Shown piece after piece: positions 4,917 through 34,545 of a stretch of DNA of 64,000 nucleotides. A program made the translations under genes and the position numbers. The stretch comes from a virus, in the IMG/VR virus record IMGVR_UViG_3300025010_000007, positions 1 through 64,000 of that record, one strand, 5' to 3'. The notes below the pieces were generated by a model. That model was not told the origin of the DNA. It did not search any database and saw nothing but the letters and a program-made list of their open reading frames with translations. Positions within the stretch are counted from its first letter, which is position 1. Each line of letters starts with the position of its first letter.

Positions 4917-6315
4917 GACTGAGTTAATGTCACACCAGGCCGATGCGGTAAATAAGGTTATCTCTAGCCGCATCGGGGCTTTATTTATGGAAATGGGTAC
5001 AGGCAAAAGCAGAACGGCCATTGAACTAACCGATCGGCGCAAAACCAAAATTGATAAAGCGATCTGGTTTTGTCCGGTTAGCCTAAAAGAAACCGTCCGA
5101 CAGGAGATTTTAAAACATACAGACTGCACTAATGCCGATATATGTGTATTTGCCGACCGTACCAACGAACGTAATGCCCCGGAGGTGCTCTGGTATGTCG
5201 TAGGCATCGAATCTATGAGCAGCAGTAATCGGGTAGTATTAACCATCAACAAGCTTATCACCGACAAGACAATGATTATCCTGGACGAGTCAAGCTACAT
5301 AAAAGGGCACAGGTCGCTACGCACGATGCGGATAACCGAACTATCTAAACGGGCAAGGTACCGCCTCATTTTGACCGGCACGCCGCTGTCCCAGGGAGTA
5401 GTCGATCTATTTTCTCAAATGCGGTTTTTGTCCCCTAAAATTCTTGGTTATGATTCGTTCTACTCTTTTTCCGCGAATCACTTAGAATATTCGGAGAAGT
5501 TTCCTGGTATGATTATTCGGGCACATAATGTACCGTATTTAGCGGCAAAAATCAAGCCTTATGTCTACCAGGTGACAAAAGGGGAATGCCTTGATCTACC
5601 ATCTAAGCTTTATGATACGCGATATTTTAGGATGACTGAGGAACAGAGATATCTTTATGAACGAGCCAAGGATGAGATTCTTTCCGAGATAGAAAACAAC
5701 GACGATTACTTTACGTCTATAACTATTTTTCGTCTATTTTCGGTGTTACAGGGAATAGTCTGTGGGTTCTGGAATCGGCGGGGATATGGTTCTATTGAGT
5801 TTGAACACCGAAGGACAGAGACACTAATAGACACAGTTTATAGTATTCCAAGGGACCAAAAAATTATTATCTGGTGTAAGTATCGTTACGATATTAAACA
5901 CATCGAAAAAGAGCTAACTGATAATTTTGGTCCTGGTTTAGTCTCTATGTTTTACGGTGACTTGAACGAGTGGCGAAGAACTGAGGAAGTAGAAAAATTC
6001 CGTAATAGTTCCCGGTTCTTTTTGGCCACCCAAAGCTGTGGAGGCCACGGTTTAACGCTTAACGAGGCACACTATGTTATTTTCTACAACAATGCTTTTA
6101 AATATAGTGAACGACTCCAGGCTGAAGATCGTTGTCACCGGATAGGACAGGAACACAAGGTGACCTACATTGATATTCAATGTGCTGGCAGTATTGATGA
6201 TAAGATCGCCGAAGCACTGGCCAAGAAAGGGAGTTTAGTACACGCTTTCAAAAGGGAGGTTGATAAAATTAAGGACCAAAAAGGTAAGTTAAGGGGGCTG
6301 ATAAAGTCACTATGA
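4906..6315 (+). CDS. SNF2-like superfamily 2 helicase/translocase
   Basis: About 469 aa. It has Walker A MEMGTGKSRTAIE (near residue 30), DExx box MIILDESSYIK, motif III LILTGTPLSQG, and a C-terminal half with QSCGGHGLTLNEAHYVIFYN and the motif VI region RCHRIGQEHKVTYIDIQ. The HRIGQ signature is typical of SNF2-family ATPases, which translocate on double-stranded DNA. ATG 4906 is taken as start. The gene ends in ATGA, overlapping the next start, so it is tightly coupled to the PP-loop gene. Phage helicases of this type can serve replication, recombination or anti-defence. Confidence 0.9.
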   Translation: MNLRTELMSHQADAVNKVISSRIGALFMEMGTGKSRTAIELTDRRKTKIDKAIWFCPVSLKETVRQEILKHTDCTNADICVFADRTNERNAPEVLWYVVGIESMSSSNRVVLTINKLITDKTMIILDESSYIKGHRSLRTMRITELSKRARYRLILTGTPLSQGVVDLFSQMRFLSPKILGYDSFYSFSANHLEYSEKFPGMIIRAHNVPYLAAKIKPYVYQVTKGECLDLPSKLYDTRYFRMTEEQRYLYERAKDEILSEIENNDDYFTSITIFRLFSVLQGIVCGFWNRRGYGSIEFEHRRTETLIDTVYSIPRDQKIIIWCKYRYDIKHIEKELTDNFGPGLVSMFYGDLNEWRRTEEVEKFRNSSRFFLATQSCGGHGLTLNEAHYVIFYNNAFKYSERLQAEDRCHRIGQEHKVTYIDIQCAGSIDDKIAEALAKKGSLVHAFKREVDKIKDQKGKLRGLIKSL

Positions 6316-7604
6316 GTAAGAAATATCTCAAAAAGAATGTTTACGACGCGGCCCAGGAACGGATTAGAATTATTTTTAATGAGTTCGAGAAAGTTTATGT
6401 TTCCTTCTCGGGAGGCAAAGATAGCGGTGTTGCCCTAAATCTTATTCTCAACTATATGCGAAGTAATAGTATTACAAATAAGATCGGAGTTTTGGTAGTA
6501 GACCTCGAAGGTCAGTATCAAGAGACAGTCAACTACATACAGACGATGCTCGAAAGCAACGCCGATCTAATAGAACCGTACTGGGTATGCTTACCGCTGA
6601 ACCTACGCAACGCTGTCTCTGTATACCAGCCGTTTTGGTGCTGCTGGGAGTCGGGACTGGAGGATAAATGGATTAGGCGGTGCCCGGATTTTCCGGTCAT
6701 TACGCAGCAGGGATACTTTCCATTCTACCGCTACAGAATGGAGTTTGAAGAATTCGTGCCTGAATTCGGCAAGTGGTTTTCTGAAGGCAAAAAAACTGCC
6801 TGCCTAGTAGGTATTAGATCAGACGAAAGCCTAAACCGTTTTAGAACTATCGCCAGTAGTAACAAAGAAACATATAACGGCATCGCATGGACCACAAAAA
6901 TAGACAGCAACCTTTACAACTGCTACCCTATTTATGACTGGAGAACCGAAGATATATGGACGGCGAACGGGAAAAACGGGTGGGAGTATAATAAGCTCTA
7001 TGACCTGTTTTATAAGGCTGGCGTTAGTATCCACGATATGCGAATATGCCAGCCTTATGGTGACGATCAACGTATTGGGATTAACCTGTTCCGGGTGATT
7101 GAACCAGAAACATGGGCAAGAGTAGTTAATCGAGTATCCGGTGCAAATTTCGGCAATATCTACTGTGGGACCAAAGCCCTTGGATATCGTCAGGTACAAA
7201 TTCCTAAAGGGCATACATGGAAAAGCTACACAAAGCTACTGCTTGCCAGTTTGCCACCGGAAACCCGCGAAAACTATGTTAGTCGGTTTATCCGTTTTAT
7301 GCGTTACTGGAATAAAAATGGCTGTGGACTACCGGATGATTGCCTGAGTAAGTTGCCCGCATCCGCTGTAGTAACCAACAAAATAGCAACCAGGGGGCAT
7401 AAAAATAAAAAGGTTGTTAGATATACAAGGATCGAGGATAGTCTCCCTGGTGATATTGAAAGCAAGCACTATGCCCCCACATGGCGCAGGATGGCCATGT
7501 GTATCCTTAAAAATGATCACCTTTGTAAAGGGTTGTCATTCGCTCAAACCAAAAACCAGGCAGAGCGACAGCGGCAACTAATAGAGAAATACCGGAATCT
7601 TTAG
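6312..7604 (+). CDS. IbrA-like PAPS-reductase-family PP-loop protein (DUF3440 type)
   Basis: 430 aa. A PP-loop SGGKDSGVALNLIL lies near the N-terminus, as in ATP pyrophosphatases and PAPS reductases. Downstream are the conserved VGIRSDESLNRF segment, PIYDWRTEDIW and the MRICQPYGDDQR region seen in the DUF3440/IbrA family. Known family: IbrA and IbrB were named as regulators of prophage eib genes in E. coli. The biochemical reaction is not established; adenylation or sulfur transfer onto a nucleic acid is an inference from the fold. It overlaps the helicase stop by ATGA and is followed by GNAT and IbrB-like genes. Confidence 0.8.
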   Translation: MSKKYLKKNVYDAAQERIRIIFNEFEKVYVSFSGGKDSGVALNLILNYMRSNSITNKIGVLVVDLEGQYQETVNYIQTMLESNADLIEPYWVCLPLNLRNAVSVYQPFWCCWESGLEDKWIRRCPDFPVITQQGYFPFYRYRMEFEEFVPEFGKWFSEGKKTACLVGIRSDESLNRFRTIASSNKETYNGIAWTTKIDSNLYNCYPIYDWRTEDIWTANGKNGWEYNKLYDLFYKAGVSIHDMRICQPYGDDQRIGINLFRVIEPETWARVVNRVSGANFGNIYCGTKALGYRQVQIPKGHTWKSYTKLLLASLPPETRENYVSRFIRFMRYWNKNGCGLPDDCLSKLPASAVVTNKIATRGHKNKKVVRYTRIEDSLPGDIESKHYAPTWRRMAMCILKNDHLCKGLSFAQTKNQAERQRQLIEKYRNL

Positions 7605-12993: not shown

Positions 12994-14589
12994 TTACTTC
13001 CCAAAGTTCCGTTTCTCTCTAACAAATTTACCAACAGGATTACCAGTCCAGACTCGGAGATCTTTGCTATATAAAATTTTGTTACCTGATTTAATTAGTC
13101 TTTTCTTTGCTTTGTTGTAAACTACACAACTTAAAGGCGGATAATTTTCGGTAGAAAAGATAATTATATATGCATCAGTCTCAGCAATATACCAGTATGG
13201 CGATATTTGGCTAAATTTTGTAGTTAAAATTGATCCGATGTTTAGGTCCGGATCTAGTTGATACGAAAATTTTTCTTCGCTCAAGCTATCTACAAACCAC
13301 CATCCGTCAAATCCAAACGCGATGGCTGTTAAATAACTAAGTTTTGCGTCTTCCATAGCTTCATCCTGAGTGGCAGCATCCCGTTGATCGGAAAGGCAGC
13401 AAATATTAACACCAAGGCTTTCCTTGTAGTTTTTAGCCTTTGTGTATTTTTCAATAGCTGTGTATGCATCGCTGGTATAACCGGAATTTGACATTAAAAA
13501 TGCCTCAAGTAAAGCCCAGTCGCCCAGCGCTAAACTTGTAGGTGTTCCGCTTGGGTTGTAGGTGGGGTTAATTTGACTACCCAACACATCATCAATATTC
13601 CAGGCATTTGCAAAGGCTTTTAAGTTTTTACTGTGACAATAGTCTACAATTTCATTTTGTCTGGCGCGAGTTTCTTTGTAGTCGTATCCGAATCTATCAA
13701 GAAAAACACCGTACCATCCCTCTGCTGCAATTCTGTCTACACCAGTCTTAAGAGCGGTCATATCAGGTAAGGGATCTGTTCCTTCTGCGCCCATAGCAAT
13801 ATAGCCAAATATTTTTACAGTAGTTTTTAGTTCATCGGTAACATATTTTTCTCTTACAGACAGAGTTCCCGGTTCATTACAAACAAGATAAGGAAACTGT
13901 TTCAGCGTTTCGATTGAGTGCGACGGACTTGCTTGTAAGTCAATGTTATCTAGATCGCCATAAAAAAAGGCAACCATGTCTAATTTAAGCTGCCCCTGTG
14001 GTGAAACCGGGCTAATGGGTTCATAGATACACTCAGGTTTTGAGTAAGCTTCGCCAACTTCAGATAATTCGACAGTAGATAAGTCCATAACCTCAAGAAA
14101 TTTAACTTTTGCCTTACCTGTTCGCTGCCTTAGATACACGGACGGATAAACATAGTTAATTGTCTTACCTGCCGCTGATTTAGTTGTAAACGCAAACTGT
14201 GACCATGGGTATTTTCCTGTTGGTATCGGCAGTCGTACCGCATATTCCCATGTATCATCGTGATGTCTGATATCAACATACAGGTACCAACCATCACCCA
14301 TCGCTCCAGGAACATCGTCTGCCTGCACTAATGCCCGGAACAGTATTTCACCGCCAGGTGTTTGTTGGTCTATGTGCACAATATCGCTAACTTTTTGCGA
14401 CAAGGTAGGATTTTGATTATTGATTACCGCTATTTCTTGATCCTCTGTAGTTATTGCTCCCGAAAAATCCCAGTCAAGAGCGTTTTTCGAAGTCAGAGCA
14501 ACGGGAGCTAATACGATATCCGCACCGTCTTTTTTAGTGTTTACATAGATACTATCTTTGTCGTTATAAATAAAAGAGATAATAGACAA
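12994..14589 (-). CDS. Tail-associated glycoside hydrolase (GH114-like TIM barrel)
   Basis: 531 aa, TTG start behind AGGAGGTGATGCG. The N-terminal 200 residues are beta-rich and probably attach to the tail. From about residue 225 the protein follows endo-alpha-1,4-polygalactosaminidase-like barrels: YGDLDNIDLQ, VKIFGYIAMGAE, GWYGVFLDRFGYDY with the putative catalytic Asp, KAFANAWNIDD, and GFDGWWFVDS. It is probably a depolymerase for host surface polysaccharide. The C-terminus may have suffered a frameshift: another frame stays open for about 20 codons past the stop. Confidence 0.75.
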   Translation of the reverse strand: MSIISFIYNDKDSIYVNTKKDGADIVLAPVALTSKNALDWDFSGAITTEDQEIAVINNQNPTLSQKVSDIVHIDQQTPGGEILFRALVQADDVPGAMGDGWYLYVDIRHHDDTWEYAVRLPIPTGKYPWSQFAFTTKSAAGKTINYVYPSVYLRQRTGKAKVKFLEVMDLSTVELSEVGEAYSKPECIYEPISPVSPQGQLKLDMVAFFYGDLDNIDLQASPSHSIETLKQFPYLVCNEPGTLSVREKYVTDELKTTVKIFGYIAMGAEGTDPLPDMTALKTGVDRIAAEGWYGVFLDRFGYDYKETRARQNEIVDYCHSKNLKAFANAWNIDDVLGSQINPTYNPSGTPTSLALGDWALLEAFLMSNSGYTSDAYTAIEKYTKAKNYKESLGVNICCLSDQRDAATQDEAMEDAKLSYLTAIAFGFDGWWFVDSLSEEKFSYQLDPDLNIGSILTTKFSQISPYWYIAETDAYIIIFSTENYPPLSCVVYNKAKKRLIKSGNKILYSKDLRVWTGNPVGKFVREKRNFGK

Positions 14590-14673: not shown

Positions 14674-15696
14674 TTAATTATTACGTTCAAACACCAAATC
14701 ATCAAAAAGCTTTTTACGTAATTTATAGCTATTACAGTGCTTCACATGCCCAAGCCAAGAATGAATAGACGCTCTTATCTCGTCAAGCTGCATCTTTCTT
14801 TTAGAATACAGCTTCATAAATAGCCTTAGCTTCCTCTTTATTCTCCTCTTGGACTGGCCTTTTAATAATCGATGCGTAGACCAAACCCTATACCCGAGAA
14901 AGGTTACGCCTCTTTTCGCGGCTATCACCTGAGTTTTACCGTTTGTTTTGAGCCGCAAATCGCTCCAAAGGAATGCCTCTATCTCCTTCCTAAGCTCATG
15001 AAGATAGTTTTTGTCTGGATGAAGAATCACGACATCATCCATATACCTCACGTAATTTTTTATCTGTAATATTTCTTTTGCATAATGATCTAGATGGTTT
15101 AAGTAAATATTTGCAAATAGTTGCGAAGTAAGCGCTCCTATTCCGAGTCCTGGATCCGTAGGACTACTATCAATAATTGTTTTGATTAACCAAAGGACGT
15201 CCATGTCTTTTATTTTACGCCCGACCAAACCAAATAAAATATTGTGGTTTATACTTGGAAAATATTGTGCTACGTCTATTTTAAGGCAGTACACTTTGCC
15301 ATATTTGCCCTGCATGGACCTGAGCAACTTCTGAAAATAGTCTACTGCTGCATGCGTTCCCTTGCCATGTCGGCAAGCGTAGTTGTGATAAATAAACGAC
15401 CTGTCAAAAATAGGCTCTATAATATTATGCAGTGCATGATGTACCACCCTATCATAGAAAGCCGGTGCAGTTATGAGCCTTTTCTTTGGTTCGATAACGT
15501 AAAATTGCCTTGAAGTTCTTGGTGTGTAGCTTTTCCAAATGAGTTCATTTTGGATTGTAATGAGATTTTCCTCAAGGTTAGAAGTAAATTTCAATACTTC
15601 ATTGCGATACCGCTTAGACTTTCTGGCATCTAAATAGGCCTTGTAGATATTTTCGTAGTCATATATTTTGCTGTATAGGTTCCCGATTCTTTTCAA
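14674..15696 (-). CDS. DGR reverse transcriptase
   Basis: 340 aa, TTG start behind GAGGTG. The RT palm motifs are present: KKRLITAPAFYDRVVHHAL, LKIDVAQYFPSI (motif A Asp141), GIGALTSQLFANIYL (the SQ pair typical of DGR and retron-type RTs, 191-192) and YMDD (218-221) followed by a thumb with FLGYRVW. It lies next to a template repeat and an Avd gene, which marks it as the enzyme that copies template RNA with adenine-specific errors. Known family: DGR RTs need Avd for activity. Catalytic residues are intact. Confidence 0.95.
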   Translation of the reverse strand: MKRIGNLYSKIYDYENIYKAYLDARKSKRYRNEVLKFTSNLEENLITIQNELIWKSYTPRTSRQFYVIEPKKRLITAPAFYDRVVHHALHNIIEPIFDRSFIYHNYACRHGKGTHAAVDYFQKLLRSMQGKYGKVYCLKIDVAQYFPSINHNILFGLVGRKIKDMDVLWLIKTIIDSSPTDPGLGIGALTSQLFANIYLNHLDHYAKEILQIKNYVRYMDDVVILHPDKNYLHELRKEIEAFLWSDLRLKTNGKTQVIAAKRGVTFLGYRVWSTHRLLKGQSKRRIKRKLRLFMKLYSKRKMQLDEIRASIHSWLGHVKHCNSYKLRKKLFDDLVFERNN

Positions 15697-15870
15697 CCCG
15701 ACACCTCAATCTGACTGATGTAAATAAAAAGAAAAGCCTTTTGAATAAATCTACTAAACTATTCTTTTGTTGTTTTTGTATTTACCCGCACAGGGAAGGT
15801 AATAGGCCCCTTTATCCCCGGCACTGGACATTAACCCTTGAGTTAACGACTTCCGGCTAATGGGGGTAGA

Positions 15871-15980
15871 GCGGAGCGAAACCCAATGTTGTTGTTGGCG
15901 TTCGACCGACCGTTGTTGAGGTTCAAGTAGAACACACCCGCATTCGAACCGTTGTTCCAGTTGCCACCACGATAGGGCAC
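15871..15980 (-). repeat. DGR template repeat (TR), 110 bp
   Basis: This copy lies in the 316-bp noncoding gap between avd and the RT gene. In the frame of the target it reads as a run of Asn codons (AAC/AAT) where the target has other residues, the design that lets adenine mutagenesis vary amino acids. It differs from the variable repeat at 16 positions, 15 of them at TR adenines (minus strand). The first 19 bases at the lower coordinate end are identical in both and hold the initiation-of-homing region. The rest of the gap is probably transcribed as the TR RNA. Confidence 0.95.
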
Positions 15981-16012
15981 TTACGGCCTATTACCTAAAA
16001 ACAATTTATTGT

Positions 16013-16375
16013 TTAGAGTTTTTTATCCACTGACCAAGTATTTTCCCTATTTCTTAGATGCCTCGACCATATCTCGTATTTTTTTAAAGAAAGAAAGGGA
16101 GGTTCCCCGGGAGAATTCCTTAGCTCACTGGCAAGACGCACCGTTGTTTTAAGAAATTGTAGCTCTACATCTATCTCCTGGAGCGTTGTTTTCTTATAAT
16201 ATTTTTTGCTCGCGGCTATGAGCAATTTTAGCAGCGTGTACATACTGGTTTTTATTTCTGCAGCCATTGTATGCTTCTCAGACTTCGGGAACTGCCGCAT
16301 GCAAATATATGCGTACCGGATCATGTCGTATGTTTTTTGAATTATTACCATGTCTTGATATTGTTCGTTACTCAT
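16013..16375 (-). CDS. avd: Avd, DGR accessory variability determinant
   Basis: About 120 aa from the ATG behind AGGGAGGC; a longer frame starts inside a hairpin and is rejected. The four-helix-bundle pattern of Avd proteins is clear: an N-terminal KTYDMIRYAYICMRQFPKSEK helix, EIKTSMYTLLKLLIAASK, LQEIDVELQFLKTTVRLASEL and a C-terminal LSLKKYEIWSRHLRNREN. Known role: a basic pentamer that binds the RT and template RNA. It lies between the target gene and the TR, in the classical order target-avd-TR-RT. Confidence 0.9.
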   Translation of the reverse strand: MSNEQYQDMVIIQKTYDMIRYAYICMRQFPKSEKHTMAAEIKTSMYTLLKLLIAASKKYYKKTTLQEIDVELQFLKTTVRLASELRNSPGEPPFLSLKKYEIWSRHLRNRENTWSVDKKL

Positions 16376-16392
16376 GCGTTGCCTCCCTAATG

Positions 16393-16410
16393 GTCGCGCG
16401 ATAGCGCGAC
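16393..16410. other. DGR hairpin/cruciform downstream of VR
   Basis: A perfect 7-bp stem GTCGCGC / GCGCGAC with a 4-base loop, 36 bp past the variable repeat and just before the avd ribosome site. In the Bordetella phage BPP-1 DGR, a comparable short GC-rich hairpin after the target repeat promotes retrohoming. Here that role is inferred from position and shape. Confidence 0.75.
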
Positions 16411-16433
16411 AGACAGAACACAAGATGCAGAAA

Positions 16434-17657
16434 TCAGATTACGAAAGCGGAGCGAAACCCAATGTTGGCGTAGGCGTACGACCGACCGTAGCTGAGGATC
16501 AAGGCGAACACACCCGCACTCGAACCGTAGCCCCAGGAGCCACCACGAAAGGGCACCCGCTCTCCGTAGTTTCGTATTTGTAAGTTGTCGCCACCATGGG
16601 ACGCATCAACAGAAGCTAAACCTAAAAGTTTTGCTATATTAGGTACCGTTATACCACCTGCAGCAGTAAGACTTTCAAATAAAACCTGAGAATATCCATA
16701 GTCAAATTGACCTCCTGGGATATACATAGGGTTGCTTATTACTGTATTGATCTTAGGATCGCCGCCTACGTCATGGGATGTAGTAGTCGAATCTCCGGCA
16801 GACGTATTGTCATATTTAAGTGTACCTGCAGTGCCAGGAGCAACTAAACTTCCATCTGTTGCAAGTATCGCTTTCCATTCTGCACTGCCCGCCGCTTGAT
16901 CTTTAGTGTTATCAGCAGCATTATTATCGGCAAGGATCTGGATTTCACCGTTAAGACGAAGGCCACCGACCCACTCGGACACATTTCCGTTTAAGTCATA
17001 GATGCCGAAAGGACTTCCATCATGGCTCCACGCTACTGGACCGCTGCCGGTTGCTACCCTACCTGTCTTGTTGACTCCGGTGTCTTTATGTGACGGTATG
17101 CCTTTTTCTGTTGCAACAGCGGCATCATATCCATAGTTGTTGTTACCGCGTGGCATAAATCCGTTTTTCTTGCACCAAAGTGCAACGGCTGCCCACTCCG
17201 CGTTGGTCACGAGATGCCAACCTACACCTTTTAACTTGCAATTTGTTAGCGCAGAATCAATTGTCAATGAGTTTGCCGGGTCTTGATATTTCAGTGATAG
17301 TGCCCTTGCTGCAGCTCCGCTGCCAACAACGATGTTTTGGTATTTTGACACATAAATAAATGGTTTAATCACACCATTTAAGATGAATGCCGAATGGGGA
17401 TATTGTCCGCCACCGGTAAGGACATCTGCTTCATTGAAGCAAGGAACGACCACCATAACGGAAGGATTGCCCTGGTCATCAAATATTACAGTATTCCGAC
17501 CAAAGCTGGCATCCTGTACCCGCTCACGCCAGGACCGCTGTTCTGCGGCATCGGTAATAACTCCGCTACGCTGGAATCGCTCAGTAAGCGAGATTTCAAT
17601 TTCGTTAATATCCCTAAGAAGTTGCCCCTGGGTATATGGACCACTAATGTATTGCAT
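16434..17657 (-). CDS. DGR target: tail tip protein with C-type-lectin (FGE-sulfatase) fold
   Basis: 407 aa. Residues 1-150 form an attachment region. From about residue 155 the FGE-sulfatase type of C-type-lectin fold is visible: GVGWHLVTNAEWAAVALWCKK, GSGPVAWSHDGSPFGIYDLNGNVSEWVGGL, and the closing RVPFRGGSWGYGSS ... NIGFRSAFVI. The last 36 residues are the DGR variable region. The catalytic cysteines of true formylglycine-generating enzyme are not apparent, which fits a binding scaffold, not an enzyme. It starts one base after the stop of the 72-aa gene. Probable receptor-binding protein. Confidence 0.92.
   Translation of the reverse strand: MQYISGPYTQGQLLRDINEIEISLTERFQRSGVITDAAEQRSWRERVQDASFGRNTVIFDDQGNPSVMVVVPCFNEADVLTGGGQYPHSAFILNGVIKPFIYVSKYQNIVVGSGAAARALSLKYQDPANSLTIDSALTNCKLKGVGWHLVTNAEWAAVALWCKKNGFMPRGNNNYGYDAAVATEKGIPSHKDTGVNKTGRVATGSGPVAWSHDGSPFGIYDLNGNVSEWVGGLRLNGEIQILADNNAADNTKDQAAGSAEWKAILATDGSLVAPGTAGTLKYDNTSAGDSTTTSHDVGGDPKINTVISNPMYIPGGQFDYGYSQVLFESLTAAGGITVPNIAKLLGLASVDASHGGDNLQIRNYGERVPFRGGSWGYGSSAGVFALILSYGRSYAYANIGFRSAFVI
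16447..16556 (-). repeat. DGR variable repeat (VR), 110 bp
   Basis: The 3' end of the target gene matches the TR over 110 bp with 16 substitutions. They change 12 amino acids relative to the TR-encoded sequence: Y-F, N-S, N-G, N-Y, N-S, Y-A, N-I, N-S, N-Y, N-Y, N-Y, N-A. Only one change (T to G in the Y-to-A codon) is not at a template adenine. Similarity ends sharply at both edges. Confidence 0.95.
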
Positions 17658-18549: not shown

Positions 18550-19410
18550 CTAGAGTTCGTATAACAAAACCTCTGCATCCAGTAGCTTTATACCGTCTAA
18601 ACCGTAAGTACCGTCGAGAAACCACAAGTCGTGTTCAATTATTACCCTGGAGCTGATATTTTCCGTATTTTGGTTGCTTGCAGTATAGCCTAAATTTAAG
18701 TCATGTTCTTTTTGGATCTCCTTACTACTAAGGTTATACGTACTATCAAGTAAAGCCGCTACAGATTGCTGTGTAGGCATATAAAAACCCATACATGTTA
18801 AAATAGGTTCATTGGCGTAAAGAGACCCACTAAGTAACCAACTACCGTCCAAATACAATATACGCTCATTCCAAAAATTGATTGTTGCCCGATAGGTAAT
18901 AGTAAGTTCTATCTCTTTGGGGTTTGTTGCTAAAAAAGGCATAACCCACACTTTACCAACATGCGCACGGGTAACTCTTTCAACGAAGGCAGTTATTTGG
19001 TCAAAGCCAAAAACATCTGTGTAAGACGGATTAGTTCGGATCCACATCTCACTTAAGTTAAATATGTTTTCGATAGTCACTTCTATCCCATAAGAGCGCA
19101 GTGCATTAATCAGATCCGACTTTGTCATCGGACCGCCGGGTTCTCGCATTATGGCGATAATATTAGCACGACGGACATCCAAGGATACAGCCGGATTTAT
19201 AGGTATACCGTACTCAGTTTCACGAATAGGTATGGTTTCAACGGCTGTAGAGACTCGCATTTCCTGCTTAACTTGATTAACTAAGGCGTCATACTTATCC
19301 AAAACGGTTCCCAGACCTCCAAAAAGCCTTTGGTTCCCCTGACCTTTTAAATCCAGCCACCTGTGCGGGAAAAAACTCAATAAAAACAATTTAAACCCCA
19401 AGGCCATCAC
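18550..19410 (-). CDS. Baseplate/tail protein of the XkdT-YmfQ neighbourhood, 286 aa
   Basis: The order after baseplate J and the YGIPINPAVSLDVRRANIIAIMREPGGPMTKSDLINALRSYGIEVTIEN region fit the DUF2313-type (Mu gp48/YmfQ) baseplate proteins, which contain an 'R.A.I.A......TK..L......G..V.I.E' pattern. The C-terminal 120 residues are unique and contain two similar 'YLDGSWLLSG' / 'FLDGTYGLDG' repeats. It probably connects the baseplate wedge to fibres. Confidence 0.75.
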   Translation of the reverse strand: MMALGFKLFLLSFFPHRWLDLKGQGNQRLFGGLGTVLDKYDALVNQVKQEMRVSTAVETIPIRETEYGIPINPAVSLDVRRANIIAIMREPGGPMTKSDLINALRSYGIEVTIENIFNLSEMWIRTNPSYTDVFGFDQITAFVERVTRAHVGKVWVMPFLATNPKEIELTITYRATINFWNERILYLDGSWLLSGSLYANEPILTCMGFYMPTQQSVAALLDSTYNLSSKEIQKEHDLNLGYTASNQNTENISSRVIIEHDLWFLDGTYGLDGIKLLDAEVLLYEL

Positions 19411-19413
19411 ATC

Positions 19414-20532
19414 CTACGATATTAAAATCGTTCCAGGTAGCGCCATCTCGGTATTATCCAGCACCTGGTTTGCTGCTGGTGTGGTCATATTAAAGTCAAT
19501 CAGTACTGGCTTTTTATCAGTGTCAATCAGGTCATAAGCACCGCTCGCTGCAGTAATAAGGTTAACCACACGGATAATTCGGTCAAGGTTTGCCTGTCCG
19601 TTAATATATTCCTTCAAAGCAGCTTCTACAATTGGCCTTCCCGTGTCAACTGTGTATCCTTCCCGCCACACACAATCGGTTAAAGTAACATCCACTGCAA
19701 CCCCCGTTGGTGAAATAACTAACACTCCTCCATCGGCAATATCGGCAGGTATTTTAGTGTCGATATACGCCTGCACATCATCAACAAGATCCTGGCTTGG
19801 TATCCCGTCAGGACCGGAAATCATAATATCAACTGTTCCATTACCACGATTGCGAGGAAAAACTGTAGCCGATACCACACCATTAACACTTTCAGCCCAG
19901 ATCTTATAGTCTGATGAGGTTCCCCCGCGCTCCGGGTTGCGCTTACGGGCCAGGATCCTGGCCCGGTATGGTTCATCGTCCTCTTTTTCTGTACCAGTCT
20001 GCAAAAGAGCCGAATCAGTTACAAAATCAAACCCGGCCTGAGCCACCAGGTTAATGGCACCATCGGGAACGTTTCCAATTTCCCCTGTCTGGGTGCATTC
20101 AACCTGTACCCCTACTATAAAAGAACTACCGGTAGGGATATATTTACCCTGCCCAACCACTACCCGAAACTGAACAGGTGGGTCATTACCAACCGGTGTG
20201 GTAGTTAATAAGAAATCATCTGGTACGAGTAGATCAGCAACCACAGGGGCACTTTTATGCAGCGTTACTGTATGAATGGACTTGGCAGCTAGTTTTCGGT
20301 CTACCCCATATTCATAACCCATTTCGTCTAATTTATCTTCTTTTGCTCCTATAGCTGTTAGCTGGTCATAAACCATTTTAATTACAACTACCAGTATATA
20401 AATAGCTTCTCTTAGTCCTACGATCAGATGTTTAATAACCCATTGATTAGCTAAATCCTGAATGGTTTTATTCGACCCAACAATGTCATTAACCAGGGTC
20501 TGTGTAATTTCGTCCTTTGTTGGCCATATCAA
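19414..20532 (-). CDS. Baseplate J-like protein (Mu gp47 / XkdT family)
   Basis: 372 aa. The conserved core is visible: YGVDRKLAAKSIHTVTLHKS, GEIGNVPDGAINLV, EKEDDEPYRARILARKRNPERGGTSSDYKIWAESVNGVVSATVFPRNRGNGTVDIMI and VYIDTKIPADI-like segments. These proteins form the wedge of contractile-tail baseplates. Its start overlaps the stop of the DUF2634-like gene. Confidence 0.9.
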   Translation of the reverse strand: MIWPTKDEITQTLVNDIVGSNKTIQDLANQWVIKHLIVGLREAIYILVVVIKMVYDQLTAIGAKEDKLDEMGYEYGVDRKLAAKSIHTVTLHKSAPVVADLLVPDDFLLTTTPVGNDPPVQFRVVVGQGKYIPTGSSFIVGVQVECTQTGEIGNVPDGAINLVAQAGFDFVTDSALLQTGTEKEDDEPYRARILARKRNPERGGTSSDYKIWAESVNGVVSATVFPRNRGNGTVDIMISGPDGIPSQDLVDDVQAYIDTKIPADIADGGVLVISPTGVAVDVTLTDCVWREGYTVDTGRPIVEAALKEYINGQANLDRIIRVVNLITAASGAYDLIDTDKKPVLIDFNMTTPAANQVLDNTEMALPGTILIS

Positions 20533-20945
20533 ATATTTTCACCTCCAAGCGATAATTGAAGTTCCTGTAGCTCAGTCTCGCCTCGGGGAAGGTATTTAAC
20601 GTAAAGCATTTTGACCTGCTTACCTTCGATTGTGATTAACTGCAGCTGACATTCAAATACCTGCTCTATCCACCCTTGCCCTCCACTCTGGGTACCAATA
20701 AGCAGCAGGGCTGCTCTAGCCTCAGCCTCTACCATTCTCGCATTCTCCTCGGTATATGGCTTGGTTAGCAAAGTATACAATGTTGTTCCATAGTTGAGGA
20801 AAAACACACTTTCACCCAGGTCGGTTAATAGTCGTAAATAGGCTTGCTGCTTGATATTATCTTCGCTGCTAACAGTTGATAGGTTGTCCATGTCAAAAAC
20901 AATATCTCCGTTTAAAATTAAAATATCTGTTCCAGTATTTATCAT
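20529..20945 (-). CDS. Baseplate protein, XkdS/DUF2634 (gp25-like)
   Basis: 138 aa. The 'NGDIVFDMDNLSTVSSEDNIKQQAYLRLLTDLGESVFFLNYGTTLY' stretch matches the lysozyme-like gp25/XkdS family of baseplate wedge proteins, with the LLT...GE.....YG pattern. It is coupled by overlap to both neighbours. Confidence 0.85.
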   Translation of the reverse strand: MINTGTDILILNGDIVFDMDNLSTVSSEDNIKQQAYLRLLTDLGESVFFLNYGTTLYTLLTKPYTEENARMVEAEARAALLLIGTQSGGQGWIEQVFECQLQLITIEGKQVKMLYVKYLPRGETELQELQLSLGGENI

Positions 20946-21352
20946 GTTTCAAACTCCGTTAACTTAGGTTCATCTTCAGCAACTAAGGGACCTTTATCAA
21001 TGAGCCCCAAGACCACATATTGTTCACTGCCGAGGCTTCCTTGAACTGCGGCTGCCAGAACTTCTTGGCCTACCTTGTAGGGCCACTGAGGCAGGTGTAT
21101 TGTATGATCCTCATGCGGGTGAGACGGTCCCGGGGGAACATGCTCAGGGTGCGTAGCATGGGTTTTATGCCGGCGAAACGGGTAAAAGGTATCCATAAGG
21201 CACCTACACCAGCCTGTTTCTGTTTCCCATGGCTGTATTAGAATCTTTAACAACCTGTTATCCTCGTCAACGGCAACAATTTCAGCGAAGACAATAGGGG
21301 ATTGAGGAATTAAATCTTCCATTGTTTTTTGCTGCTCAGTAAATAGTCTCAT
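20942..21352 (-). CDS. Baseplate protein of the XkdR/spike position, OB-fold-like, with His-rich loop
   Basis: 136 aa. The N-terminal half reads as OB-fold strands (PIVFAEIVAVDEDNRLLKILIQPWETETGW), the C-terminal half as a second barrel (KVGQEVLAAAVQGSLGSEQYVVLGLID). Between them is a His/Pro-rich loop (HKTHATHPEHVPP then PHEDHTIH) with about eight histidines in 25 residues, unusual and possibly metal-binding, as in iron-loaded spike tips. It lies between the XkdQ-like and XkdS-like genes, the place of DUF2577/XkdR or a gpV-like spike. Confidence 0.65.
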   Translation of the reverse strand: MRLFTEQQKTMEDLIPQSPIVFAEIVAVDEDNRLLKILIQPWETETGWCRCLMDTFYPFRRHKTHATHPEHVPPGPSHPHEDHTIHLPQWPYKVGQEVLAAAVQGSLGSEQYVVLGLIDKGPLVAEDEPKLTEFET

Positions 21353-22479
21353 TAACCGAATTGCCCCCCTTCCTCAAAAGGTAGATTCGTAAAGCTAATT
21401 TCTGCCTTTAAACCTTCTTTTGATCCCAATACCACGATTTTAGGTGTAAAGTATACCTGACTCAACCCAACCCCCACACCATTTAGACTAATGCGCCGGT
21501 CATTTGATAGCTCCGGAAACCAGTCAGTGTCAAATGAACCATATACCTGCTGCCGAGACAAATCCTCCAGGATACTTCTTGCTTTTCTCTGGCATTGATC
21601 CCGGGTAAGATTCGGGTAGTAATACCGTTGGGTGTACTTGTGCCCGGTCGATGAACCTGAAAAGGACGCCTTTTCTACTATACGCTGCCCTTTGCCTTTC
21701 TTTTTACCAGGTATCCAGGATATAACCTCCACTATAAGGTTACGTGCTGCGTTGGGGGCTCTTTCAATACAAAAATGCTCATCAATGTTAAAGCCCCAGG
21801 TAAAAGAAATCGGGTCAAGGGTATAGCCGGGGAGATTTTCTTGCGGACCAAAATACCATTCCTCGCCCTTCACCCTTGTTGTAAATCCTTCATTTTGGGC
21901 CATATATAAAACAAAATCCCAGTGTGATATTTCACGCTTCGTGTCAACATGGTCTTCCTTTTCGTATCCACCTATCAGAGTGGCTGTTTCCACCGGTACC
22001 ACTGGAGTTAAACCATGAATAGCAGCAATTTGCTTAAACGCAGCTGTAGAAGTCTGGTTTTGCCACTTAGCTGTCTCCTTATAGTCAAATGGCTTTGCAG
22101 CATAAGAGCGACCATGGATAGTTACAATTTCCCCATCGCGCTTAGAGAAATCCCAAGTAGGCCTGTCCATCATGCCTTCAATTAACAAAGCAGGATCTCC
22201 CTCGCCCTCGAAACCGGCTTCAATTTTAACTGCTGCTGTGCCAAAAACCAGTTCAGAGGATTTTGATGGACCACTAAAGAGCAGTTCATCCCGAGGCTGG
22301 TTTTCGGTTACCTCCCATGGCAAAGTTACCTGAAAGGCATCAACTGCCCCCAATCCGTTAGCCTCTGCCTGAAAAGAAATCCAATCTACAACCCGCTTAT
22401 CATTTATACTTATTATTACTATTGGTTTACCAATAGTACGAAATGGACCTTTACGGTTCACAAAGGGATCCTTAAGCAC
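21352..22479 (-). CDS. Tail hub protein (XkdQ / late control gpD-like)
   Basis: 375 aa. The N-terminal beta domain (PIVIISINDKRVVDWISFQAEANGLGAVDAFQVTLPW), central ISHWDFVLYMAQNEGFTTRVKGEEWYFGP and C-terminal domain match the hub family gp27/gpD/XkdQ. This protein forms the trimeric ring below the tail tube and carries the spike. It overlaps the XkdP-like gene upstream. Confidence 0.85.
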   Translation of the reverse strand: MLKDPFVNRKGPFRTIGKPIVIISINDKRVVDWISFQAEANGLGAVDAFQVTLPWEVTENQPRDELLFSGPSKSSELVFGTAAVKIEAGFEGEGDPALLIEGMMDRPTWDFSKRDGEIVTIHGRSYAAKPFDYKETAKWQNQTSTAAFKQIAAIHGLTPVVPVETATLIGGYEKEDHVDTKREISHWDFVLYMAQNEGFTTRVKGEEWYFGPQENLPGYTLDPISFTWGFNIDEHFCIERAPNAARNLIVEVISWIPGKKKGKGQRIVEKASFSGSSTGHKYTQRYYYPNLTRDQCQRKARSILEDLSRQQVYGSFDTDWFPELSNDRRISLNGVGVGLSQVYFTPKIVVLGSKEGLKAEISFTNLPFEEGGQFG

Positions 22480-33015: not shown

Positions 33016-34545
33016 TTAATTCACCTCCACATTTGTACCGCCTTGGAAATTAAGTAAAATCCACTCAGCGGTATTGTAGTGTTTGACCTTAATGTTCTGA
33101 ACAAACTGATCGATAGCTGCTGCTGCATCATCGAAGGCGATTGAATACGCCTCGATTTTACTTGTTTCTTGTTCATCAACCGGTGCAACAAGGTTATCAA
33201 AAAAAGTTCGGATCCTGCGCTCTGCATTGCCTTTCATAACCTTCGTCATAGCCTTACCCTGCCAGGGAGCTGCCACAGCCTCTAATGCTTTTTCAATCCA
33301 GCTATTTAACCGGCGCTTATTTACTTTGCGGTTTTCATCATCACTGATTAGTTCACCTGCCACATCGGTCTTAGCAAGAGTGTAATCGTTAGCTATGCGC
33401 CAGGCCAAAGAACCATCACCGGCTGCCGAAGGTTTAAGCTGGAAGGCAGCAATCTGATGATTATATAACTGGGAATACTGGTCAAAGTCAAGTTCCTGCT
33501 CTGCCCCGGATACCCAAGTACATTCTACGGCAAGGCCGGAATCTTCGATGTTTCCGATTACATGGGCAATGGCCGACAAGCAAGCACCGGAGGTATATTG
33601 GTCTCCCACTGATTTATAACGACCATAGACCATCTGCATAAAGTCAGTGTCATAAGTATCCCGGTAAGTGACAGCAGCATCCACATTAGCTGCAGAACCG
33701 ATACCACAATATGTCAAACAGTTGTACTTCTCACCGAAAGCATATAATGCAGCATCAGCCGTGGCCTCGGAGAAGTCGGCAAGGGCTACATCAGATACAA
33801 CTGTTCCCACTAACTCCAAAAGTTTAAGACCGGTTCGTTTACCTGTACCAGAGTCGTAGGTACCAATATAATCAGCTGCAGTAAGTGCTGCTCCGTTAGA
33901 ACCACTGGTTAACTGTGTTTGAGCCAGTACAGCTGGACGGGCATCGGTAAAGGATGCAGCATCGGATTGTAAATCCTCCAAAACAAAATGCTCGCTGCGA
34001 GAATTGACATAGGTTACCGCATATCGAGCACTTGCCGGATCCATACTTAAGTTGTCATAGGTTTCAAAGCCACCGATATCAGACCATAACATCAGTTTAA
34101 ATGTATTGGCATCGGTTCCATCGGCAGCTTGTACGGTAAAGATGTTGGCATACTCACCCGGACCGGCTTTTGGTGTCACCTTAAGAGTTGGATCCGGTGT
34201 TACTTGTCGGTCATTCAATGTTTTGCTGGCTATGGCGTATCCGGCACACAGAACCCGCACAAAAACAGCTTTTTTAACCCGTGCCCGGTGTAGATGGTCT
34301 AACAGGGCGTTACCCTTTTTGGATGCAGTTGTCAATCCCAGCACCGACGCTACAATCTCAGAAAGACGTTTGGTCGGCGTTTCGCTGGCGTAAACATACT
34401 GGTTAACTGGTCCCCGGTCGAAATCACCCACAAAACCCAACACAAAGTCCTTCAAGTCTACTGCATCCGACTGCGGCACAGCTAACTCATTAATATATAA
34501 GCCTGGTGGGTACCCGGCTAAAGATGTTACTCCACGTAAAATCAA
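33016..34545 (-). CDS. Tail sheath protein
   Basis: 509 aa, TTG start behind a GGGGGG-type ribosome site. The N-terminus is YPPGLYINELAVPQSDA, with a central DNRSEHF-like domain and a C-terminal segment SWIEKALEAVAAPWQGKAMTKVMKGNAERRIRTFFDNLV, typical of XkdK/contractile sheath proteins. Long central insert with TLTSGSNGAALTAADYIG-type strands. It proves the contractile (myovirus) tail type. Confidence 0.9.
   Translation of the reverse strand: MILRGVTSLAGYPPGLYINELAVPQSDAVDLKDFVLGFVGDFDRGPVNQYVYASETPTKRLSEIVASVLGLTTASKKGNALLDHLHRARVKKAVFVRVLCAGYAIASKTLNDRQVTPDPTLKVTPKAGPGEYANIFTVQAADGTDANTFKLMLWSDIGGFETYDNLSMDPASARYAVTYVNSRSEHFVLEDLQSDAASFTDARPAVLAQTQLTSGSNGAALTAADYIGTYDSGTGKRTGLKLLELVGTVVSDVALADFSEATADAALYAFGEKYNCLTYCGIGSAANVDAAVTYRDTYDTDFMQMVYGRYKSVGDQYTSGACLSAIAHVIGNIEDSGLAVECTWVSGAEQELDFDQYSQLYNHQIAAFQLKPSAAGDGSLAWRIANDYTLAKTDVAGELISDDENRKVNKRRLNSWIEKALEAVAAPWQGKAMTKVMKGNAERRIRTFFDNLVAPVDEQETSKIEAYSIAFDDAAAAIDQFVQNIKVKHYNTAEWILLNFQGGTNVEVN

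Follow-up and report, generated by a model that had tools for sequence, protein, structure and literature searches.

A canonical diversity-generating retroelement (DGR), ordinary for its kind, lies on the minus strand of the window, the 64,000-base stretch analysed here (bases 1–64000 of an IMG/VR virus record of 80,469 bases in full). It very probably belongs to the TaqVP/VHML type of phage DGR and diversifies a likely receptor binder. The parts are transcribed in the order target gene with its variable repeat (VR), hairpin, avd, template repeat (TR), spacer and reverse transcriptase (RT):

16434..17657, minus strand: target gene for a TaqVP-like variable protein of 407 aa, FGE-type C-type lectin (PF03781, PHROG 2889, fold)
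16446..16556, minus strand: VR, coding for residues 368-404 (86% identity to TR)
16446..16467, minus strand: IMH-like 3′ end of VR, the same in TR (putative role, by analogy with BPP-1)
16393..16410, minus strand: GC-rich inverted repeat beyond VR (stem 7 bp, loop 4 nt, TATC on the sense strand)
16013..16375, minus strand: avd, accessory variability determinant, 120 aa, ATG at 16375 (NF033474, PF22296)
15985..15996, minus strand: TR-closing RNA helix, 5′ arm AGGTAATAGGCC (pairs without mismatch over 12 bp with 15797-15808; covariation)
15870..15980, minus strand: TR (repeat comparison with VR)
15726..15871, minus strand: RNA of the TR-RT spacer, Rfam RF02921 RT-14 (68.8 bits, full-length)
15797..15808, minus strand: TR-closing RNA helix, 3′ arm GGCCTATTACCT (unpaired in the RT-14 model)
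14674..15696, minus strand: DGR RT, 340 aa, TTG start (IGALTSQ and YMDD motifs, RVT_1)

The coordinates confirm the first-pass annotation in its list of parts (RT, TR, avd, hairpin, VR and target) and in their order, target-avd-TR-RT. Its description of the element as apparently intact suits RT, avd, TR, spacer RNA and VR and needs qualifying for the hairpin, the loop of which is reversed. No second TR or VR was found across the 80,469-base record, which has a single copy of each.

Repeats, reverse transcriptase and Avd

We aligned TR with VR over 111 nt, one more by extension than the 110 originally given, and found 16 mismatched sites, 15 of them at TR adenines. TR holds 25 adenines, and the chance of at least 15 of 16 mismatches falling on them is P = 3.5e-11 (hypergeometric). 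The earlier count of 16 differences, 15 at adenines, with 12 amino acids changed was therefore accurate, but these had been assigned to the last 36 residues and the altered codons (residues 370, 374, 376, 377, 380, 385, 387, 389, 390, 394, 396 and 397) cover the last 38. TR adenines occur exclusively at codon positions 1 and 2, chiefly in AAC codons, and the TR/VR changes create no stop codons. The two repeats share a mismatch-free 3′ end of 22 nt, which in VR may serve as an IMH-like element by analogy with BPP-1. As read from the repeats, these differences imply past mutagenic homing of the window DGR.

The sole non-adenine mismatch is a T→G change at TR 15929. It adjoins an adenine change in the same codon, which reads TAC in TR (15928-15929) and GCC in VR (16504-16505). 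Many relatives have GCN at this codon in TR, so TR may have changed since the last homing.

The RT matches RVT_1 (E 6e-20) and has the DGR motifs IGxxxSQ and YxDD in the forms IGALTSQ and YMDD; the YMDD and G-L-SQ columns are unchanged across the RTs of 23 relatives. A profile of these 23 scored 289 bits with BPP-1 bRT in 8ub7, which we take to be the BPP-1 complex, compared with 140 bits for the top group II RT. Judged by profile score, the closest solved enzyme is the BPP-1 DGR bRT. The accessory protein Avd exceeds the cut-offs of both NF033474 (89.9 bits, DGR-specific cut-off 80) and PF22296 bAvd (92.7 bits), and the TR-RT spacer is a full-length match to the structured RNA RF02921 RT-14 (68.8 bits, gathering threshold 48.1). 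DGR spacers match Rfam RF02921 (RT-14) and RF03077 (RT-2) above the cut-off and RF03080 (RT-9) below it; the names of the RT-14, RT-9 and RT-2 RNA families give no hint of DGR spacers.

A different reading, in which TR and VR are a mere diverged duplication beside the RT of a group II intron, a retron or a defence system, is almost certainly wrong. The top NCBIfam RT match is indeed group_II_RT_mat, at 141 bits, but its cut-off is 300, and no NCBIfam RT family, whether group II, retron or defence, reached its curated cut-off in that search. The RT profile gives the BPP-1 DGR enzyme twice the score of any group II RT, and the adenine bias, avd and the spacer RNA refute a duplication with a non-DGR RT.

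A covarying helix encloses the template repeat

The sequence AGGTAATAGGCC, 4 nt before TR, is perfectly complementary over 12 bp to GGCCTATTACCT, 61 nt past TR. Helices of 11-15 bp and of quite different sequence occupy equivalent places in nearly all of 41 non-redundant relatives. Across these relatives the helix score was 26.9 when each locus was paired with itself and 15.7 when 5′ regions were paired with the 3′ regions of other loci, and 0 of 100,000 permutations reached the observed sum. An alignment made from sequence only contained two-sided changes at 12 of 12 helix pairs (99 such cells), with a covariation score of 0.554; shuffles scored 0.275, and slid pairings did not exceed 0.228. 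In 139 non-redundant loci the scores were 26.3 for own and 15.6 for swapped regions (z = 40). The stem search used a GC-weighted score and a position window, under which an AU-rich stem that a position-unrestricted search had returned for the window, a chance match, was replaced. When the window RNA was folded thermodynamically by itself, the result was no better than shuffles (z = −1.28) and could not establish the structure, which was established by covariation.

BPP-1-like elements also have a helix at the equivalent place, for example AGGGCAACATGG/CCATGTTGTCCT (z = 6.2, 36 elements). The helix of BPP-1 itself, scored without gaps, did not reach significance (73 of 500 shuffles); a TR-closing helix there would require a bulge or mismatch, in contrast to the perfect 12 bp of the window. 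Such a helix may already have been described in BPP-1 structures. The 3′ arm falls in a single-stranded stretch of the Rfam RT-14, RT-9 and Phage_DGR models, which leave it unpaired because they begin after TR and omit the 5′ arm. With the pairing formed, the TR ends lie next to each other, and the helix could plausibly present the template and halt cDNA synthesis at the 5′ end of TR. A covarying, template-enclosing helix in nearly all related DGRs offers a testable rule of template presentation to RT, and could sharpen both DGR detection and RNA models.

The biochemical steps can be proposed by analogy with BPP-1. The avd-TR-RT transcript would fold with TR enclosed by the 12-bp helix, formed between the spacer and the bases shortly before TR. 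The spacer, an RT-14 RNA, would recruit RT-Avd and prime cDNA synthesis at the 3′ end of TR, and RT would misincorporate opposite template adenines. The IMH-like 3′ end and the hairpin beyond it would then guide the cDNA to take the place of VR in the last part of the target gene. The outcome would be new side chains across the exposed face of a C-type-lectin protein, the gene of which adjoins baseplate genes. The points against this explanation are one VR shared by three contigs, the reversed loop, the T→G change and the folding score of the window RNA.

The reversed hairpin loop and activity of the element

In the study of Guo et al. (PMC3240598), phage DGR targets are described as followed by hairpins with GC-rich stems of 7-10 bp and a 4-nt loop, 5′GRNA, on the sense strand, and a change of the BPP-1 loop from GAAA to CTTT brings homing down to near background. 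The window hairpin (16393-16410) has an intact 7-bp stem. Its sense loop, TATC, departs from GRNA and is the reverse complement of the usual GATA, which stands on the opposite strand; this reversal was absent from the first-pass annotation. Among 120 distinct hairpins from 317 TR/VR loci, 111 have a GNNA sense loop, and TNNC occurs in the window's lineage only. A GRNA-type hairpin within 110 nt was missing from 67 of 195 loci, and the feature does not define DGRs.

A second reversal was found between two relatives, L254 (the same as L186) and L259, which are 96.6% identical over 7.7 kb and have the same hairpin flanks and different VRs. The hairpin of 34 nt at L254 4175-4208 is exactly inverted with respect to that of L259 (TCCG versus CGGA); in L286-L288, relatives of both, the loop is TACG. 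Comparison of 36 close-context pairs gave the same loop in 25, a substituted loop in 10 and a flipped loop in 1. On the simplest reading, palindromes flip occasionally through template switching during replication and selection usually retains GNNA on the sense strand, in which case the window phage would have a weakened or disabled target site. Natural flips of target-site hairpins would allow a direct test of why the loop sequence is strand-specific.

We next consider VR divergence. The TR/VR pairs of 263 related loci contain 3278 mismatches, 3117 of which fall on TR adenines, a proportion that leans upward because the loci were chosen at an A-fraction of at least 0.6-0.7. In pairs of relatives with flanks at least 93% identical, VR typically shows 10-16 differences at TR-A sites, compared with 0-3 at the other sites, of which there are about 80. 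One pair, L029/L031, has 100% identical flanks and TR, and its VRs differ at 12 of 24 A sites and 0 of 81 others. A search for natural diversification among relatives had been suggested as a check on the first-pass annotation, and this near-adenine-only divergence in close pairs supports the expectation. Because close relatives show adenine-only VR divergence, we conclude on comparative grounds that DGRs of this kind are active, and the window copy may still be active as well. The VR, avd and target of L003/L019 and L020, which belong to the same phage, are identical to those of the window, in three contigs that possibly come from one site. When other viral contigs were searched for this site of the window, whatever its loop, all matches belonged to the same phage.

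The reversed loop may instead mark a recently disabled DGR, with intact machinery that made the present VR and a hairpin inversion that now blocks or weakens homing, leaving the binder frozen. We regard this as possible but somewhat doubtful, and it would refine the best explanation and not exclude it. Of the 120 distinct hairpins, 111 are GNNA and that of the window is the only one with TNNC on the sense strand; the GAAA to CTTT change in BPP-1 dropped homing to near background (PMC3240598); and VR is the same in three contigs of the window phage, whereas many relatives with flanks at least 93% identical differ at 10-16 A sites. However, VR is also common to other near-identical relatives (L199/L337 and L366/L373), and the BPP-1 loop changes in the accessible text of PMC3240598 do not include a reverse-complement loop. 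GATA is still displayed by the other strand of a cruciform, and BPP-1 retains residual activity after hairpin deletion (PMC12875486). Moreover, a single non-adenine TR/VR difference has accumulated, which indicates homing not long ago.

The orientation of the palindrome might also act as an invertible switch that turns target-site recognition on and off, with the window phage caught in the reversed, off state. Flipped hairpins in two lineages, including the exact 34-nt inversion between L186/L254 and L259 with identical flanks, would fit such a switch, but only 1 flip occurred among 36 close-context pairs, the opposite orientation was not found in any contig of the window phage, and template switching at palindromes can flip loops without any function. 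A regulated hairpin switch is possible but unsupported, and we consider it very unlikely. We favour a diversifying phage DGR, the target and setting of which are described below.

Target protein, phage setting and known systems

The target exceeds the PF03781 cut-off (30.6 bits, cut-off 23.3) and matches PHROG 2889 (E 5e-122). Its AF2 model (pLDDT 92.4, pTM 0.93) has TaqVP, 5vf4, as the top PDB fold match (TM 0.84, 40% identity), and the target profile matches 5vf4 with E 1.9e-118. Homology extends over the full CLec domain in sequence and fold, as in the TaqVP-like family, and both profile and model show a C-type-lectin fold, with VR at the protein's C-terminus. TaqVP is a crystallised DGR variable protein from a Thermus prophage, with a variable C-terminus (PMC6328139). 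The window also encodes contractile-phage proteins, namely a tail sheath (33016-34545), baseplate proteins (18550-22479) and a tape measure, and the target closely follows the baseplate genes. The proposal of an FGE-type C-type-lectin target among the tail genes of a contractile phage is upheld; its designation as a tail tip protein is suggested by gene order and homology. The homologue at the equivalent place in ACA1 is annotated antireceptor, and those at the target's place in VHML, VP58.5 and ACA1 are annotated antireceptor or FGE-like protein. From gene order and homology, the target is most likely a phage receptor-binding protein. Its nearest homologues in genomes are in Bacillota (L086, 71%; Caloramator, Desulforamulus and Geobacillus).

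Elsewhere in the record, the gene at 6312-7604 is phosphoadenosine phosphosulfate reductase-like (PHROG 2302, E 5e-105) and is a possible auxiliary metabolic gene. The 531-aa protein at 12994-14589, between RT and the fibre genes, had no Pfam, NCBIfam or PHROG match. Contig 3300001242_000060 (L020) is the window phage, about 100% identical over 24 kb and more, but close to its end, at 15475, the RT gives way to a 91% allele. The same allele opens contig 3300025000_001768 (L004), from another phage, in which RT is followed by genes for a major tail protein and a chaperone and bases 15476-15763 have a nearly identical counterpart. The switch is either a recent cassette exchange or an assembly chimera. 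The near-identical contig L003/L019 differs from the window at 19579-19593 solely by a 15-base cluster, in a baseplate J-like gene, which may reflect replacement of a short local segment or an error at the contig end.

The order baseplate genes, FGE target, avd, TR and RT is also found in VHML, VP58.5, ACA1 and BalMu-1. The DGRs of these phages have RTs 45-50% and Avd proteins about 35-63% identical to those of the window, which differs from them in its phage backbone and its reversed hairpin loop. The window RT begins at a TTG 173 nt after TR, whereas the annotated RT ORF of VP58.5 and ACA1 starts at the end of avd. TaqVP of Thermus aquaticus (PDB 5VF4) has the same fold as the target and, like it, a variable C-terminus; compared with most relatives, the target has added N-terminal residues, predicted to form two helices. 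The Rfam RT-14 model covers the window spacer in full, beginning at the end of TR and without the 5′ helix arm. BPP-1 shares the target-avd-TR-RT layout, the RT family, Avd, TR/VR and the hairpin with the window, and differs in its spacer, which is RF03022 Phage_DGR in BPP-1 and RT-14 in the window, and in its sense-strand loop, which is GAAA in BPP-1 and TATC in the window.
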